This document shows positions 2,164 to 52,150 of a DNA stretch of 64,000 nt, piece after piece; position 1 is the first letter of the stretch; each line of letters starts with the position of its first letter. This DNA comes from Stenotrophomonas indicatrix. Its GTDB lineage: Bacteria > Pseudomonadota > Gammaproteobacteria > Xanthomonadales > Xanthomonadaceae. The notes below the pieces were generated by a model. The model was not told where the DNA came from. It saw only the letters and a list, made by a program, of their open reading frames with translations, and did no database searches. The stretch is taken from NCBI RefSeq assembly GCF_002750975.1, contig NZ_PEJS01000001.1, positions 1,054,001-1,118,000 of the forward strand. Direction: 5' to 3'. The translations under genes and the position numbers were made by a program.

Positions 2164-2363
2164 CGGCGCCGACGCAGCGTCGTCCGACACACTGGTAGTG
2201 CCGGGCGCTGCCCGGCAGCCTTTTCCCGCGCCTGCGGGGAGGCGTCACTTTCTTTGCTCGTGCAAAGAAAGTAACCAAAGAAGCACGCCGCCAGGTCGCG
2301 AGCCGGTGCTGCGCACCGGTGCCCTGCGCTCCTCGGTCCGTCGAGGGACGGCGCGCAGAAGTC

Positions 2364-44354: not shown

Positions 44355-44426
44355 CGCCGGGCATGGCCCGGCGCCACCGGGGTGAGCGTGCGGATGATCG
44401 TGGGTAGCGCCGGGCCATGCCCGGCG
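44355..44426. repeat. facing pair of SMAG palindromes
   Basis: Minus unit 44355-44377 (terminal box GTGG) and plus unit 44404-44426 (GTAG) lie between the convergent dapE and lipoprotein genes, with GCCGGGC/GCCCGGC stems and their GTAG ends facing. Confidence 0.85.
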
Positions 44427-44442: not shown

Positions 44443-45339
44443 TTACTCCGAAAAACTGAAGAACGGCGGTTCGACCGCTTTTTTCCAGTAGCTCGGCGCC
44501 GCCATGTAGAACTGCTGTGCTTCCGCCTTGGCAAACCAGGCGGCAGCAGCGTCAGGGTTCTTGTCCACGCCCGGCGCACTGCGGCCCAGCAGCAGCCCGG
44601 CGAAGTACTGGCCGAACACATTGCCCTTCTCGCCGGCGCGCTGGTACAGCTGAAGCGCACGCGCCGGATCGCGCGGCAGTCCCACGCCCTTCTCCAGCAG
44701 CGCGCCCAGGTCCACCTGCGCTTCGGCATCGCCGCGCTCGGCGCGACGCTGGATCTGCGCAACCAGCGGATGCACGCTGTCGCCCTGCGCGGCCACCGCA
44801 TCCGGCAGTCGCGACGATGAACTCGGATAGCGCTGGTAGATCATTCCGCGCAGGTCCCAGCGCAGCGCCTGTTGCGCGTCGCCACGCTGGCGATAGGCCT
44901 TGGCGAGTTCGTAGAACGCATAGGGATTGCCGTGATAGGCCGCCGCCAGATAGGCGCGTTCGCCACGCCGCCAGGACGCGCGCAGCACCGGCGCAGGATT
45001 GATGTGGGGGCTGTCGGCATACCGCAGCGTGCCGGAGATCCAGATCCGGCCCAGTGCTTTTTCCGCCTTGGTGTTGTGGAAGGTCCAGGGGGTGACCGCT
45101 GCGGCACGCTCGTAATAGGCGATGGCGCGCGGATCGTTGAAGCGCTCGAAGGTTTCCGCGGTATCAAAGGCTCCCTCGAAGCTGCCGTCGGTTCCGCGTT
45201 GTTCCAGGCTCTGCTGCTGAGCCGGCGGAAGGAGCGAGGGTGGGGGCAGGGTCTGGCAGGCGGCCAGGCCCAGGCAGATCAGGGCGGCCAGAGCCGCGTT
45301 GCGTCCGTTGCGGTGTTGCATTTCCATTGCACGTTTCAC
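44443..45339 (-). CDS. lipoprotein with Sel1-like/TPR repeats
   Basis: This 298-aa predicted lipoprotein has a basic N-terminus (MKRAMEMQHRNGRN) and then AALAALICLGLAAC with the lipidated Cys at ~28. The mature part has helical repeats, best seen at ~205-270 (GDAEAQVDLGALLEKGVGLP and GNVFGQYFAGLLLG, the Sel1 pattern of A-x-x-x-L-G). Sel1 repeats mediate protein contacts. Starts at residue 5 or 7 are equally possible (ATG 45327 or 45321). It is divergent from the asnB leader region and shares its upstream DNA. Function unknown. Confidence 0.8.
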   Translation of the reverse strand: MKRAMEMQHRNGRNAALAALICLGLAACQTLPPPSLLPPAQQQSLEQRGTDGSFEGAFDTAETFERFNDPRAIAYYERAAAVTPWTFHNTKAEKALGRIWISGTLRYADSPHINPAPVLRASWRRGERAYLAAAYHGNPYAFYELAKAYRQRGDAQQALRWDLRGMIYQRYPSSSSRLPDAVAAQGDSVHPLVAQIQRRAERGDAEAQVDLGALLEKGVGLPRDPARALQLYQRAGEKGNVFGQYFAGLLLGRSAPGVDKNPDAAAAWFAKAEAQQFYMAAPSYWKKAVEPPFFSFSE

Positions 45340-45419
45340 GGCGGGCCATTATGCGCGCTGCGGAGTGGTTGCCAACGCAACGGTTGCGCCGTGCCGGAAA
45401 GCGGGGTAGGGTCGGTGCC

Positions 45420-45521
45420 ATGTCGATCCGCCTGGCCACCGCCGTCAACAACACCAACCGCAATAATCTGCGTGCGAATAATCGTGCGCGGCCGATGCGG
45501 GACTGCGCCCTGGGTAGATAG
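45420..45521 (+). CDS. Asn-rich leader peptide of the asnB attenuator
   Basis: This 33-codon ORF begins 243 bp upstream of asnB. It reads MSIRLATAV then NNTNRNNLRANN (residues 10-21: seven Asn in twelve codons) then RARPMRDCALGR and a TAG stop. GGGGTAGGG, 8-17 bases before the ATG, may serve as ribosome-binding site. It is followed 29 bases later by an intrinsic terminator (45551-45577). Codons 24-28 contain a 13-nt segment (45489-45501) that is the exact complement of the terminator's 5' arm. The peptide itself probably has no function; its translation speed at Asn codons would be the signal. The assignment comes from this layout and the identity of the downstream gene; no homology was needed. 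Confidence 0.85.
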   Translation: MSIRLATAVNNTNRNNLRANNRARPMRDCALGR

Positions 45522-45577
45522 ACAGCAACATACGCCCGGACACCAGAAAACCCGCATCGGCCGATGCGGGTTTTTTT
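45428..45577 (+). promoter_or_regulatory. ribosome-mediated transcription attenuator of asnB
   Basis: Four RNA segments can be read. Segment 1 (45428-45437, CCGC-CU-GGCC) can pair with segment 2 (45490-45500, GGCC-GAU-GCGG). Segment 2 (45489-45501, CGGCCGATGCGGG) pairs perfectly over 13 bp with segment 3 (45551-45563, CCCGCATCGGCCG), forming the antiterminator. Segment 3 pairs with segment 4 (45561-45570) as the terminator. The Asn codons (45447-45482) lie between 1 and 2. A ribosome stalled there would block segment 1 and leave 2 free to pair with 3, allowing read-through. A ribosome that reaches the stop at 45521 covers segment 2 and permits termination. This follows the trp/his leader logic. 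Confidence 0.82.
45551..45577 (+). terminator. attenuator terminator upstream of asnB
   Basis: CCCGCATC-GGCC-GATGCGGG is a perfect 20-bp palindrome (stem of 8 plus a GGCC loop) followed by seven T. It lies before asnB (ATG 45663) and after the leader peptide stop, so it must be read through to express asnB. Confidence 0.95.
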
Positions 45578-45662
45578 GTGCCCGGGCGCAGCCCCACCCG
45601 GGCCTGGATGGCCGGTCGAACACCTTTCCCCCGTGTACTTCCCCACAACAGGAGTTCCACCC

Positions 45663-47354
45663 ATGTGTTCGATCTTCGGTATTTTCGGCCTGCAGGCCGG
45701 TGACGATCTTCCTTCCCTGCGCCGCCATGCGCTGGAGCTGTCGCAGCGCCAGCGTCATCGTGGCCCGGACTGGAGCGGTGTGTACCTGGACGAGGGCGCG
45801 CTGCTGGTGCACGAGCGCCTGGCCATCGTCGATCCGGCAGGCGGCTCGCAGCCGCTGCTGTCCGAAGACGGGCAGCTGGCGCTTGCGGTCAACGGCGAGA
45901 TCTACAACCACCAGCAGCTCAAGGCCGGACTTGCCCAGGCCTATGCCTTCCAGACCGGCTCGGACTGCGAGGTGATCAACGCGCTGTACTGCCAGGGCGG
46001 GTCGCCGGCGCAGTGGCTGGAGCAGCTCAACGGCATCTTTGCTTTCGCTTTGTGGGATCGCAGTGCGGGCCGTGTACTCATCGCGCGCGACCCGGTCGGC
46101 GTGGTGCCGCTGTACTGGGGCCATGATGCGCAGGGGCGGTTGCGCGTCGCCTCTGAAATGAAGGCGTTGGTCGATACCTGCGCCGACGTCGCCCAGTTCC
46201 CACCGGGCCATTACTACGACAGCGCCAGCGGTGAGCTGGTGCGCTACTACCAGCAGCCGTGGCGCGAGTACGACGACGTGCAGGGCCGCTCGGCCGATCT
46301 CGCCGAGCTGCGCCAGGCCTTCGAACATGCGGTCGAACGCCAGTTGATGAGTGACGTGCCGTACGGCGTGCTGCTGTCGGGCGGGCTGGATTCGTCGCTG
46401 GTTGCCGCCGTGGCAGCACGTTATGCGCGTCGTCGCATCGAAGATGGCGGGCAGAGTGAAGCGTGGTGGCCGCGCCTGCATTCGTTCGCCATCGGCCTGA
46501 AGGGCTCGCCGGATCTGGCCGCTGCTGCGGTGGCCGCCGAAGCACTGGGCACGGTCCACCACGGCTTCGAATACACCTTCGAAGAAGGCCTGGACGTGCT
46601 GCCGGAGGTGATCCGCCATATTGAAACCTACGACGTCACCACCATCCGCGCCTCCACGCCGATGTTCCTGCTGGCGCGCCGGATCAAGGCGATGGGGGTG
46701 AAGATGGTGCTGTCCGGCGAAGGCAGCGACGAGATCTTCGGCGGCTATCTGTACTTCCACAAGGCGCCGGACGCGCGCGAATTCCATCAGGAACTGGTGC
46801 GCAAGCTCGATGCCCTGCACAACTACGATTGCCTGCGCGCCAACAAGTCGATGATGGCCTGGGGCGTGGAGCCGCGCGTGCCGTTCCTGGACCGCGAGTT
46901 CCTCGACGTGGCGATGCGATTCGATGCCGCGCACAAGATGGTCGGCGCCGGTTTTGGTGGTCGCCGCATCGAGAAGGCGGTACTGCGCGAAGCCTTCCAG
47001 GGCTACCTGCCGGACAGCATCCTGTGGCGGCAGAAGGAGCAGTTCAGCGATGGCGTCGGCTATGGCTGGATCGATGGCCTGAAGGCGCACGCCGAAGCAC
47101 AGGTCAGCGACCGCGTGTTGGCTGCGGCCGACAAGCGCTTCCCGCACAACCCGCCGCAGACCAAGGAGGCGTACTACTACCGTCACCTGTTCGAGCAGTT
47201 CTTCCCCAGCCATGCGGCGGCTGAAACCGTGCCGGGCGGCAAGTCGATCGCCTGTTCCTCGCCGGCAGCGATCGCCTGGGATGCCAGCTTTGCCGCCGCC
47301 GCCGACCCGTCGGGCCGCGCCATCGCCGGCGTGCACGAGCAGGCCCTGGCCTGA
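45663..47354 (+). CDS. asnB: asparagine synthetase B, glutamine-hydrolysing
   Basis: AsnB (563 aa; E. coli 554) makes Asn from Asp, ATP and glutamine. Cys2 is the glutaminase nucleophile (MCSIFGIFG). Other glutaminase residues are in HRGPDWSG (~32-39) and NGEIYNHQ (~78-85). The PP-loop SGGLDSS (239-245) marks the ATP-pyrophosphatase domain, and SGEGSDEIFGGY (~357-368) the beta-aspartyl-AMP site. AGGAG lies ten bases upstream of ATG 45663. Transcription passes through the Asn-rich leader and terminator at 45420-45577, so asparaginyl-tRNA shortage is the predicted inducer. Confidence 0.97.
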   Translation: MCSIFGIFGLQAGDDLPSLRRHALELSQRQRHRGPDWSGVYLDEGALLVHERLAIVDPAGGSQPLLSEDGQLALAVNGEIYNHQQLKAGLAQAYAFQTGSDCEVINALYCQGGSPAQWLEQLNGIFAFALWDRSAGRVLIARDPVGVVPLYWGHDAQGRLRVASEMKALVDTCADVAQFPPGHYYDSASGELVRYYQQPWREYDDVQGRSADLAELRQAFEHAVERQLMSDVPYGVLLSGGLDSSLVAAVAARYARRRIEDGGQSEAWWPRLHSFAIGLKGSPDLAAAAVAAEALGTVHHGFEYTFEEGLDVLPEVIRHIETYDVTTIRASTPMFLLARRIKAMGVKMVLSGEGSDEIFGGYLYFHKAPDAREFHQELVRKLDALHNYDCLRANKSMMAWGVEPRVPFLDREFLDVAMRFDAAHKMVGAGFGGRRIEKAVLREAFQGYLPDSILWRQKEQFSDGVGYGWIDGLKAHAEAQVSDRVLAAADKRFPHNPPQTKEAYYYRHLFEQFFPSHAAAETVPGGKSIACSSPAAIAWDASFAAAADPSGRAIAGVHEQALA

Positions 47355-48863: not shown

Positions 48864-48950
48864 CGCCGGGCATGGCCCGGCGCTACCATATCGTTCGGAT
48901 CCACTGTGCGCGGGCTCGTTGCTCTGGTAGCGCCGGGCCATGCCCGGCGA
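48864..48950. repeat. facing pair of SMAG palindromes
   Basis: Minus unit 48864-48886 and plus unit 48927-48950 sit between the convergent antiporter and acylase genes, both with GCCGGGC/GCCCGGC stems and GTAG ends facing across 40 bp. Confidence 0.88.
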
Positions 48951-48954
48951 GCAA

Positions 48955-51285
48955 TTACCTGGCCGGTATCAGCGTCAACGTGTGCTGCGCCTTGCCGGGC
49001 AGGAACGGGGTGGGGCGGCCATGCACCCAGTCCTCATGTCCGGCGCCCCAGTACGGCGACAGCGGATGGCCGCTCTGCCCACCCGGCATGTGCACGATGC
49101 CATCGCCCTCGTGTCCGGGCGAGACCACCATGCGCTGCGAGGCGCCGAACGCCGGCGTCTGTACACGCGGCATGTCACGGTCGCCGGGCAGGGGATCGGC
49201 CGGCATGCACAACCAGCGGCTGGCGAAGGCGGGCAGGGCGCGCGCGACCGGATGGCAGATCGCTGCGGTATTGCGCTCGCCCCAGCTGCGGTGCGCCAGC
49301 GGCCCCTGCGCGGACAGCTCCGCTTCGGTACGGCGCGCCGCATCGGCCAGCAGTGCATCCCAGCTCGTGTAGGCGGGTGGCAGCAGGTTGGCCGGGCGTT
49401 GCTGCAGCATCGGCCAGGCCACGCCTTCCAGCTGCGCCAGGCGCGGTGCCAGGAAATCCTCGCCCAGCGGTGCCCGGGCCGGTGCCAGCAGCGCATCGGT
49501 CAACGTGTCGAGTACCTGTGTGCGGAACTCGCGCACCACCCGGTAGCTGACCGAATCGATCGCGGCGCGCCCGTCCCAATGGCTGCTGGCCGTGCCCAAC
49601 CGCTTCAGTGCCGGATCGTCGCTGTGCTCGACCACCTGGTGCAGCAGCACCCACCAGCGCTGCAGGAACACCGCGCGGTCGTCGAGCTGGATCGCCAGCA
49701 GGTCGTGCTCGTCGAAATGCTCCTGCGTGGCCAGCAGGTCGCGGATCTGCCGTCCGCGCGCGCCGAGGTCGTAGCCGCCATTGCCGACCGTGGCCAGCGT
49801 CGCCTCGTCCACCACGCGGCTGTTGGCCGTCCACAGCCGATGCGAGGCGGGGTCGACCAGGCTCGGCGCGGCGTCGCTGCGGATCGGCCACGGTGCGCAG
49901 CCCGGGTTGCGGTGATTGTCATTGAAGCCCAGCGGTGTACAGCCCGGGCCACGGTCAGGCCGCGCGCCGATCAGGCGCCACGCGATACGCCCGCTGCGGT
50001 CGCCGAGCACCAGGTTCTGCGCGGGAATGCCGGCATGGTCGGCAATCTGCAGGGCCTGGTCCAGATCGGCGGCCCGTGCCATGTCGGCGAAGTCCATGCG
50101 CACCGCGCCCGGCAACTGCGCGACCCAGCGCAAGGCGTCGCCGCTGCCATCGGCGTGGGTGTGCAGGATCGGTCCCCACGCGGTTTCGCGCACCGGGAAA
50201 CGCACGTCGGCACCGCCGGCAACGACGATCCGTTCCTCGTGCACGGTCACTGCAGCGTCCGCTGGCTCGGTGCGGAAGTCGGCAGTGTCGATATAGCTGT
50301 TGGTGAAGCCCCAGGCCACGTGGCCGTTGCTGCCGACAATCACCGCCGGCACGCCCGGCAGCGAGAATCCGCTGACGTCGACCTGGCCACCCGCGGCCTG
50401 TGGATCGGGGTAGCGCAGGCGCACACGGAACCACAGGCTGGGAGCGCGCAGGCCCAGGTGCATGTCGTCGGCGACGATCGCACGGCCATCGGCGGTCAGC
50501 GCGCCGGCCACGGCGAAATTGTTGCTGCCGACCGCGTCGGCATCCTCGGCAGTCGCGCCGGTCGCGGCCTTCAGCGTGCGCAGGTCAAGCTGGCTGGCAT
50601 CAGGCAGGGGGGCGTTGCCACGGGCAGCGCCGGCCAGCGGCGCATCCCACTCGCTGCCGTCGTGCGCCAGCAGCGCATACAGTGCTGGCGGCACCACCGC
50701 GCGGATGCGCTCCAGGGCCAGTTCGGACTGGTTGCTGGGGTCCTGCAGGTCGGCGTACATGGCCAGGCCTGCCAGCACGCTGTCGCTGGCCTGCCACGGT
50801 TGGGGCGCCTGCCGCAGCAGCAGGTAGGCCCATGGCCGTACCGCCAGGCTGCCCAGGCCCTGGTTGACCCCGTCCACATAGGCGCGCACGGCCGCAGGGT
50901 CGCTGCCCAGTGCGTCCTGCAGATGGGCCTCGGTGCGCGCGCGCAGGCGGTGTACGCGCATGCGCTTGTCGGCTTCGATCGCCTTCGCCCCGAACAGGGC
51001 GGACAGTTCACCCGCGGCACTGCGCCGCATCAGGTCCATTTCGAAATAACGTTCCTGCGCGTGAACACGGCCGAGCGCCCGCAGGGCATCAGCCTTGTTG
51101 CCGGCGGTGATGGTGACCACCCCCAGCGCATCGCGCTCCACGGTGACCTTGGTGGCCAGCCCGGGCAACGGGCGCTCGCCGTCCAGTTCGGCCAGGCTGC
51201 CGCGCAGCAGCAACCACAGGACCAGCACCGCGAGCAGCACGATTGCCACCAGCACACCCAGAATCCACCGCCACGTACGACGCAT
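48955..51285 (-). CDS. penicillin-acylase-family (Ntn) hydrolase
   Basis: This 776-aa envelope enzyme is of the penicillin amidase family, whose members hydrolyse beta-lactam side chains or acyl-homoserine lactones. An N-terminal hydrophobic segment (residues 6-28, VLVAIVLLAVLVLWLLL) acts as a signal or anchor. Residues ~45-220 form the alpha chain (RDALGVVTITAGNKADALRA). The autoproteolysis site precedes Ser254 in AVGSNNFAVAG, the N-terminal nucleophile of the beta chain. SNGHVAWGFTNSYID (~313) holds the oxyanion region. The anchor lacks an obvious signal-peptidase site, so the protein may stay bound to the membrane. Substrate unknown; an AHL acylase role would be speculative. Confidence 0.9.
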   Translation of the reverse strand: MRRTWRWILGVLVAIVLLAVLVLWLLLRGSLAELDGERPLPGLATKVTVERDALGVVTITAGNKADALRALGRVHAQERYFEMDLMRRSAAGELSALFGAKAIEADKRMRVHRLRARTEAHLQDALGSDPAAVRAYVDGVNQGLGSLAVRPWAYLLLRQAPQPWQASDSVLAGLAMYADLQDPSNQSELALERIRAVVPPALYALLAHDGSEWDAPLAGAARGNAPLPDASQLDLRTLKAATGATAEDADAVGSNNFAVAGALTADGRAIVADDMHLGLRAPSLWFRVRLRYPDPQAAGGQVDVSGFSLPGVPAVIVGSNGHVAWGFTNSYIDTADFRTEPADAAVTVHEERIVVAGGADVRFPVRETAWGPILHTHADGSGDALRWVAQLPGAVRMDFADMARAADLDQALQIADHAGIPAQNLVLGDRSGRIAWRLIGARPDRGPGCTPLGFNDNHRNPGCAPWPIRSDAAPSLVDPASHRLWTANSRVVDEATLATVGNGGYDLGARGRQIRDLLATQEHFDEHDLLAIQLDDRAVFLQRWWVLLHQVVEHSDDPALKRLGTASSHWDGRAAIDSVSYRVVREFRTQVLDTLTDALLAPARAPLGEDFLAPRLAQLEGVAWPMLQQRPANLLPPAYTSWDALLADAARRTEAELSAQGPLAHRSWGERNTAAICHPVARALPAFASRWLCMPADPLPGDRDMPRVQTPAFGASQRMVVSPGHEGDGIVHMPGGQSGHPLSPYWGAGHEDWVHGRPTPFLPGKAQHTLTLIPAR

Positions 51286-52080: not shown

Positions 52081-52150
52081 GTAGCGCCGGGCCATGCCCG
52101 GCGGGTTCCCGGTTGCCGGGCAAGGCGTGTCAACCAAGGTTGACACCTAC
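52081..52150. repeat. two SMAG palindromes before the parC stop
   Basis: Plus unit 52081-52103 (GCCGGGC stem) and minus unit 52127-52150 (GTGTCAACC/GGTTGACAC stem, GTAG on the minus strand). Here the GTAG ends point outward, unlike the other pairs. Confidence 0.85.

Follow-up and report, generated by a model that had tools for sequence, protein, structure and literature searches.

A probable asparagine-sensing leader-peptide attenuator ahead of asnB in Stenotrophomonas indicatrix and its relatives

Stenotrophomonas indicatrix carries, in a genome of 4.56 Mb, a gene for asparagine synthase B (asnB) that is preceded by a short open reading frame (ORF) rich in asparagine (Asn) codons and by an intrinsic terminator. 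The locus lies in a stretch of 64,000 nucleotides (nt), here called the window, which covers positions 1,054,001 to 1,118,000 of contig NZ_PEJS01000001.1 (assembly GCF_002750975.1). In this report, the short ORF, the terminator and the sequences that pair with it are described, compared with those of related bacteria and discussed as a putative transcription attenuator of asnB. The following features are present, with positions counted from the first letter of the window.

45384-45389, plus strand: -35-like element TTGCGC, 17 nt from the -10-like element; the TTG recurs 35-38 nt ahead of the leader start in relatives
45407-45412, plus strand: -10-like element TAGGGT, 7 nt upstream of the leader ATG; placed by the hexamer position in relatives
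45420-45521, plus strand: asnB leader peptide ORF with 7 Asn; read directly, with matching short ORFs in 66 loci and 44 genomes
45447-45482, plus strand: Asn control codons (10, 11, 13, 15, 16, 20, 21); read directly, conserved, AAT-enriched relative to asnB
45458-45500, plus strand: candidate protector (1:2) hairpin, 45458-45462 with 45496-45500 around the hairpin 45468-45491; from a group alignment of 25 sequences
45489-45501, plus strand: antiterminator arm, leader codons 24-28; from exact complementarity to 45551-45563, the arm-swap test and covariation
45551-45577, plus strand: intrinsic terminator, whose 5' arm is common to the antiterminator; from direct reading and covariation
45650-45654, plus strand: AGGAG, likely ribosome-binding site of asnB; from sequence reading
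45663-47354, plus strand: asnB, glutamine-hydrolysing asparagine synthase B (NF006949, PRK09431), with GATase_7 and Asn_synthase domains

The downstream gene, called asparagine synthetase in a first-pass annotation of the same letters, is identified as asparagine synthase B by its match to NF006949 (868 bits, cut-off 499), and its closest named protein is AsnB of Stenotrophomonas maltophilia LMG 978, with 96% identity. The leader ORF is exactly as the annotation described it, with 33 codons and seven Asn codons between codons 10 and 21. It encodes MSIRLATAVNNTNRNNLRANNRARPMRDCALGR; codons for the very amino acid made by the product of asnB are thus clustered in a short ORF ahead of that gene. 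Two candidate starts of this ORF were tied, and 45420 was taken. None of the 525 window ORFs of 12-70 residues, counted from the first start codon, holds at least five Asn in 12 codons, a count that does not include the leader itself, as its frame begins further upstream (93 codons). In 80 related loci the same density is reached by 38 of 4587 short ORFs, leaders not separated out, and 36 of these 38 lie on the asnB strand. Summed over 111 leaders, 711 Asn codons are in frame versus 5 and 6 in the two other frames. No NCBIfam or Pfam model matches the peptide. Searching the window genome for further Asn leaders gave 15 pattern matches, two of which are the asnB leader, and a backward-pattern control also gave 15, so that the uniqueness of the leader within the genome is not established by this search. 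Ten of the 13 other matches sit in stop-to-stop frames of at least 134 codons; the leader's own such frame has 126, so length is undecisive.

Between the leader ORF and asnB, 29 nt past the stop codon, lies the terminator CCCGCATC-GGCC-GATGCGGG-T7, with the 8-base-pair stem, GGCC loop and seven T that had been reported for it. It is not listed by a consensus terminator scan of the window, apparently because A-T pairs lengthen the stem into the T-run. The 13-nt complement proposed earlier is also present: 45489-45501 is the exact reverse complement of 45551-45563, and an antiterminator using the 5' arm of the terminator can thus be drawn. In Rfam, no family reaches its gathering score in window positions 44500-46500 or in 5 of the 80 related loci. 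The matches to Thr_leader (22.2 bits, cut-off 55) and Leu_leader (19.4 bits, cut-off 50) stay well under their thresholds, and no T-box family is among the matches in these regions.

The conservation of the leader was studied in two sets of genomes. A scan of genome contigs for AsnB resulted in 80 loci, of which 66 were usable; one locus with only 60 nt of upstream sequence (L043) and 13 records labelled with other taxa (L033, L044, L072, L073, L075, L077-L083, L085) were set aside, and the leader was not found in these 13. All 66 usable loci, which are of Xanthomonadaceae or Rhodanobacteraceae type, have an Asn-containing leader ORF before asnB and a terminator-like hairpin behind it. They include Stenotrophomonas, Xanthomonas, Pseudoxanthomonas, Lysobacter, Luteimonas, Thermomonas, Arenimonas, Dyella, Rhodanobacter, Luteibacter, Frateuria and Fulvimonas. 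With a strict finder, which accepts a hairpin directly followed by at least four T, a terminator is found in 54 of the 66. The second set is an order-wide sample of 151 genomes, 91 with asnB, and upstream DNA was examined in 89 of these (the window genome, G000, and a partial match, G132, were left out). Three families contribute 46 of these genomes, and the leader is present in 44 of them (f1, 22/23; f2, 3/3; f12, 19/20), and the two genomes that lack it, G091 and G067, have a more distant AsnB (64% and 66% identity). In five other families, the leader was not found in 42 of 43 asnB genomes, the remaining one (G082) having a look-alike. The sampled genomes are partly of the same species as the 66 loci, and removal of identical sequences left 105 distinct upstream regions and 97 distinct arm regions.

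Across the 111 leaders, the peptide has 19-44 residues, the shortest being a mis-picked start in G090, and 3-10 Asn. The densest 12 codons contain 5-8 Asn in 96 leaders, four in ten and three in five. It had been proposed that the Asn codons should be conserved in a peptide that otherwise drifts, and this is what the 66 loci and 44 genomes have: the N-terminal half drifts, and the C-terminus varies by group (RARPMRVCD, LPRAGD, WRARA, GWAGV), as does the following hairpin. The hairpin of G090 is visible by eye but was missed by the terminator finder, and the arm counts cover the other 110 of the 111 leaders.

Several loci outside these families are recorded here as separate observations. In G082 (family f7; contig C49, locus L145), a 22-codon ORF, MFAIYNTINTTNNRLLRSAGSF, with four Asn is followed by a terminator, GCCCGCTTCAAAAGCGGGC-T8, before asnB, and TTGACA stands 54 nt upstream of the ORF start; the sample contains one genome of this genus. 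This look-alike may be an Asn attenuator, either older or of independent origin, or may be due to chance. An ORF with eight Asn in L083 (Bacteroidota) has no terminator behind it and is taken as chance. In addition, L044 (a record titled Rhodococcus sp. RD6.2), L033 (a Holophagales metagenome-assembled genome, MAG) and L072 (a Deltaproteobacteria MAG) lack the leader but have an AsnB 73-80% identical to that of the window, which may be due to gene transfer, misbinning or contamination.

Joint change of the antiterminator arm and the terminator arm was assessed in two ways. When arms were swapped between leaders and the register was re-optimised, the pairing run was 7.56 for own versus 6.41 for swapped arms, which was reached in 0 of 20000 permutations and, after collapse to 19 terminator-arm types, in 2 of 20000. 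In the covariation set, consisting of 75 distinct rows of the 110 arm sets after removal of identical rows, doubly changed cells number 51 in the antiterminator versus 23.5 +/- 3.6 in shuffles, and 83 in the terminator versus 30.1 +/- 6.5, neither value being reached in 500 shuffles. An example is provided by six rows (L026, L028, L030, L032, L037 and G136, the last repeating L030), in which the arm reads GCAGGCC or ACAGGCC. The terminator 5' arm of these rows has GGCCTGC, with CCTGC instead of CCCGC, a change that preserves antiterminator pairing at the cost of a G-U pair in the terminator.

For the fourth structure, a pairing of 45428-45437 with 45490-45500 had been put forward in the first-pass annotation. 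This pairing can form (-16.4 kcal/mol) but is not kept beyond the nearest relatives, and as a general element it was rejected, as it rests on the drifting N-terminal codons. The hairpin at 45458-45500, which overlaps the Asn codons and contains most of the antiterminator arm, is a better candidate for the protector, supported in one group only. In 25 Stenotrophomonas-Xanthomonas-type sequences, 93% of its cells are paired and two pairs are doubly changed, which 6 of 500 shuffles reach. Membership of this group was decided by peptide motifs located within the antiterminator arm itself; 29 sequences were picked, and four non-members (L018, L028, L053 and L057) were dropped before alignment.

The upstream sequences provide indications about the transcript start. 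Of the 105 distinct upstream sequences, 103 have a TTG 35-38 nt ahead of the leader start; this count is partly selected, as a TTGC at a set distance was the criterion for ranking candidate starts. The best -10-like hexamer (TAGGGT, TACGGT, TAGCGT, CAGGAT, TCTAGT and others) has its end 6-7 nt upstream of the start in 80 sequences. Base -1, which had no part in ranking the starts, is C in 94%; of the start codons, 102 are ATG and three are GTG (L070, G120 and the mis-picked G090). A consensus promoter scan of the window does not list the leader promoter, and some Lysobacter leaders carry AGGA, a possible Shine-Dalgarno sequence. This geometry suggests that the transcript is leaderless and starts at the leader ATG or one base before it. 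A leaderless leader ORF has been described for trpL of Sinorhizobium meliloti in the available text of PMC7298713.

For a sensor of Asn-tRNA, the source of Asn in the cell matters, and here the first-pass annotation, which had supposed a tRNA-dependent route beside AsnB, is contradicted. Asparaginyl-tRNA synthetase (AsnRS) is present in the window genome and in each of the 24 further members of its family that were sampled; the 46 genomes with GatB in the 151-genome sample include none of these 25. AsnA was not found in the window genome or in 12 sampled congeners; the distant G004 has a below-cut-off match. Over the order-wide sample, asnB is present in 91 and gatB in 46 of the 151 genomes, both together in none, and neither in 14, some genomes being incomplete. 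AsnRS is not universal in the order, since it has no match in five genomes that do have one to asnB. In family f12, the four gatB genomes (G012, G031, G053, G150) all lack an asnB match. AsnB is likely the sole Asn source in the window genome. As AsnRS is present and asnB and gatB do not co-occur, charged tRNA-Asn would most likely report free Asn made by AsnB, and AsnRS without GatB strengthens the mechanism proposed below.

The combined evidence argues that asnB is, with high probability, controlled by a ribosome-mediated transcription attenuator in this region, with Asn-tRNA(Asn) as the signal. The attenuation logic of the trp, his, leu and phe type, suggested from the single sequence, is supported by the conservation of the leader and by the joint change of the arms. 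Transcription would start at or beside the leader ATG. When Asn-tRNA is plentiful, the ribosome would clear the Asn codons, and the antiterminator arm would be covered by the ribosome or sequestered by the protector at 45458-45500; the terminator at 45551-45577 would then form, releasing a short RNA of approximately 158 nt. When Asn-tRNA is scarce, the ribosome would stall within codons 10-21 and the protector would stay open. The segment 45489-45501 could then pair with 45551-45563, which would block the terminator and let the polymerase enter asnB.

Multiple observations weigh against this attenuator. The covariation that had been asked of both pairings is present for antiterminator and terminator by cell counts and arm swaps, but not by stricter measures, which are described as less inflated by relatedness. 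Doubly changed pairs number 5 in the antiterminator versus 4.1 in shuffles (reached by 84 of 500) and 4 in the terminator versus 3.8 (420 of 500), and for further pair types the shuffles reach the antiterminator value in 203 and the terminator value in 284 of 500. As these pair-level measures are no higher than in shuffles, a few inherited changes may carry the covariation signal. The antiterminator register in this test was also chosen to maximise pairing, and within the 25-sequence group the antiterminator is nearly invariant (two cells are doubly changed, as in 8 of 500 shuffles; for pairs the figure is 110 of 500). Over all groups, a general minimum-free-energy test of the protector has 4.17 of 5 core bases paired versus 4.21 with shuffled upstream sequence. 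Five leaders (L018, L025, L027, G110 and G146) hold at most three Asn in 12 codons, and the 12 loci not accepted by the strict finder have hairpins with a shorter or interrupted T-tract. Finally, the window genome encodes two AsnB-like paralogues (43% and 37% identity in their best segments).

The terminator could also be thought only to end stray transcription or to limit read-through, with the Asn-rich ORF being incidental. Intergenic terminators are common, and the weak T-tract in a dozen relatives would suit such a role. The upstream gene at 44443-45339, which encodes a Sel1-repeat protein, is divergent, however, so that no upstream gene reads in; moreover, the Asn codons are kept in three families, and the leader end changes together with the terminator arm. 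The distance from the T-run to asnB is at minimum 29 nt, and in 38 of 110 leaders it is at most 45 nt, so that asnB there can hardly have another promoter, as far as spacing allows this to be inferred. This explanation is considered very unlikely.

A second alternative, improbable to the same degree, is that the main role lies in trans action of the terminated RNA or of the Asn/Arg-rich peptide, similar to rnTrpL and peTrpL of S. meliloti. The predicted leaderless 5' end and short terminated RNA resemble S. meliloti trpL, as far as the available text of PMC7298713 describes it, and the C-terminus of the peptide is conserved within groups. Between groups, however, the C-terminus differs, which would be expected if its codons serve the antiterminator arm. 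A trans role may exist in addition to attenuation. The least probable alternative of all is control of asnB translation or mRNA decay by leader translation, in place of termination, for although the ribosome-binding site of asnB lies downstream on the same transcript, it stands 72 nt past the T-run in the window, and the conserved features are the hairpin, the T-tract and the complement of the hairpin's 5' arm.

Within the attenuator as proposed, the choice of Asn codon differs from that of the gene. In the 66 loci, AAT makes up 195 of 415 leader Asn codons (47%) versus 73 of 540 (14%) in the first 1650 nt of asnB; its share is higher in the leader than in its own asnB in 63 loci, and the reverse is found in three. 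Third-position GC of all other codons is 0.864 in leaders versus 0.863 in asnB. Leaders are also T-leaning in Ile (15/51 vs 121/1390), Thr, Pro and His, with Cys opposite, all in small numbers. Elf and Ehrenberg argued that sensitivity depends on which of the synonymous control codons are used (PMC1183508, available text). The AAT bias could come from slow or queuosine-dependent decoding, or from avoidance of pairing; 21 of 21 genomes encode tRNA-guanine transglycosylase. It is unlikely that the leader is tuned to tRNA-Asn decoding of AAU, in which case, given a leaderless start, asnB output could depend on the queuosine state of tRNA-Asn and on leaderless initiation besides Asn. A simpler explanation is that base pairing is avoided, and for this reason, together with the T-leaning of Ile, Thr, Pro and His, the estimate for queuosine tuning was lowered.

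Other features of the surroundings were noted in passing. A sigma-70-like promoter match (TTGGCA, 16 nt, CATAAT) lies at 45348-45375 on the minus strand, ahead of the divergent Sel1-repeat gene. On the minus strand, 48955-51285 encodes a penicillin-amidase family protein (PF01804, 419 bits) with weak similarity to PvdQ-type acylases. A GTAG-type palindrome, GTAGCGCCGGGCCATGCCCGGC or a variant, occurs five times in the window (2195-2216, 44404-44425, 48865-48886, 48927-48948 and 52081-52102) when up to two mismatches are allowed, the chance expectation being 0.01; these copies are probably the Stenotrophomonas GTAG repeats.

The first-pass annotation knew of no described Asn leader-peptide attenuator, and this holds for the sources searched. 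None is described, among the matches listed, in the libraries and in the titles and abstract openings of the open-access literature, a search that stopped short of supplements and subscription papers. The available texts of PMC2965389, PMC1262725 and PMC3039613 make no mention of an Asn attenuator; the candidate lists of PMC2965389, in a supplement outside the search, could hold the element. In the available text of PMC3771888, Xanthomonas XCV1533, AsnB2, appears only in a table of quantitative reverse-transcription PCR. Judged by its sequence, the element is probably a new leader-peptide attenuator with Asn as the sensed amino acid, the type of mechanism itself being known. If true, asparagine would join the amino acids sensed by leader-peptide attenuation, and the probable control of asnB would be explained in a large group including Stenotrophomonas, Xanthomonas, Lysobacter, Dyella and Rhodanobacter. 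The cell would probably make AsnB mainly when asparagine is short. The two Asn routes are mutually exclusive in the sampled order, and with asnB and AsnRS together, charged tRNA-Asn would read the enzyme's product directly. The leaderless geometry and the AAT bias provide testable ideas on how sensitivity is set.

Leader-peptide attenuators of proteobacteria are well known for trp, his, leu, thr, ilv and phe genes. The element described here resembles these in its control codons for the product amino acid, its terminator, its competing antiterminator and an ORF that overlaps the antiterminator arm. It differs from them in that it would sense Asn, precedes asnB and is probably leaderless. In Firmicutes, Asn genes are controlled by T-boxes, which bind uncharged tRNA directly. 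Like a T-box, the asnB element is predicted to read the charging of Asn-tRNA, but it would do so through a translated ORF. In the available text of PMC1183508, trp, his, ilvGMEDA, ilvBN and pheA are named as attenuators. S. meliloti trpL/rnTrpL shares the leader ORF at the 5' end of the transcript and the short terminated RNA, both predicted from sequence in the present case, whereas it concerns Trp, belongs to an alphaproteobacterium and has a reported trans action (PMC7298713, available text).

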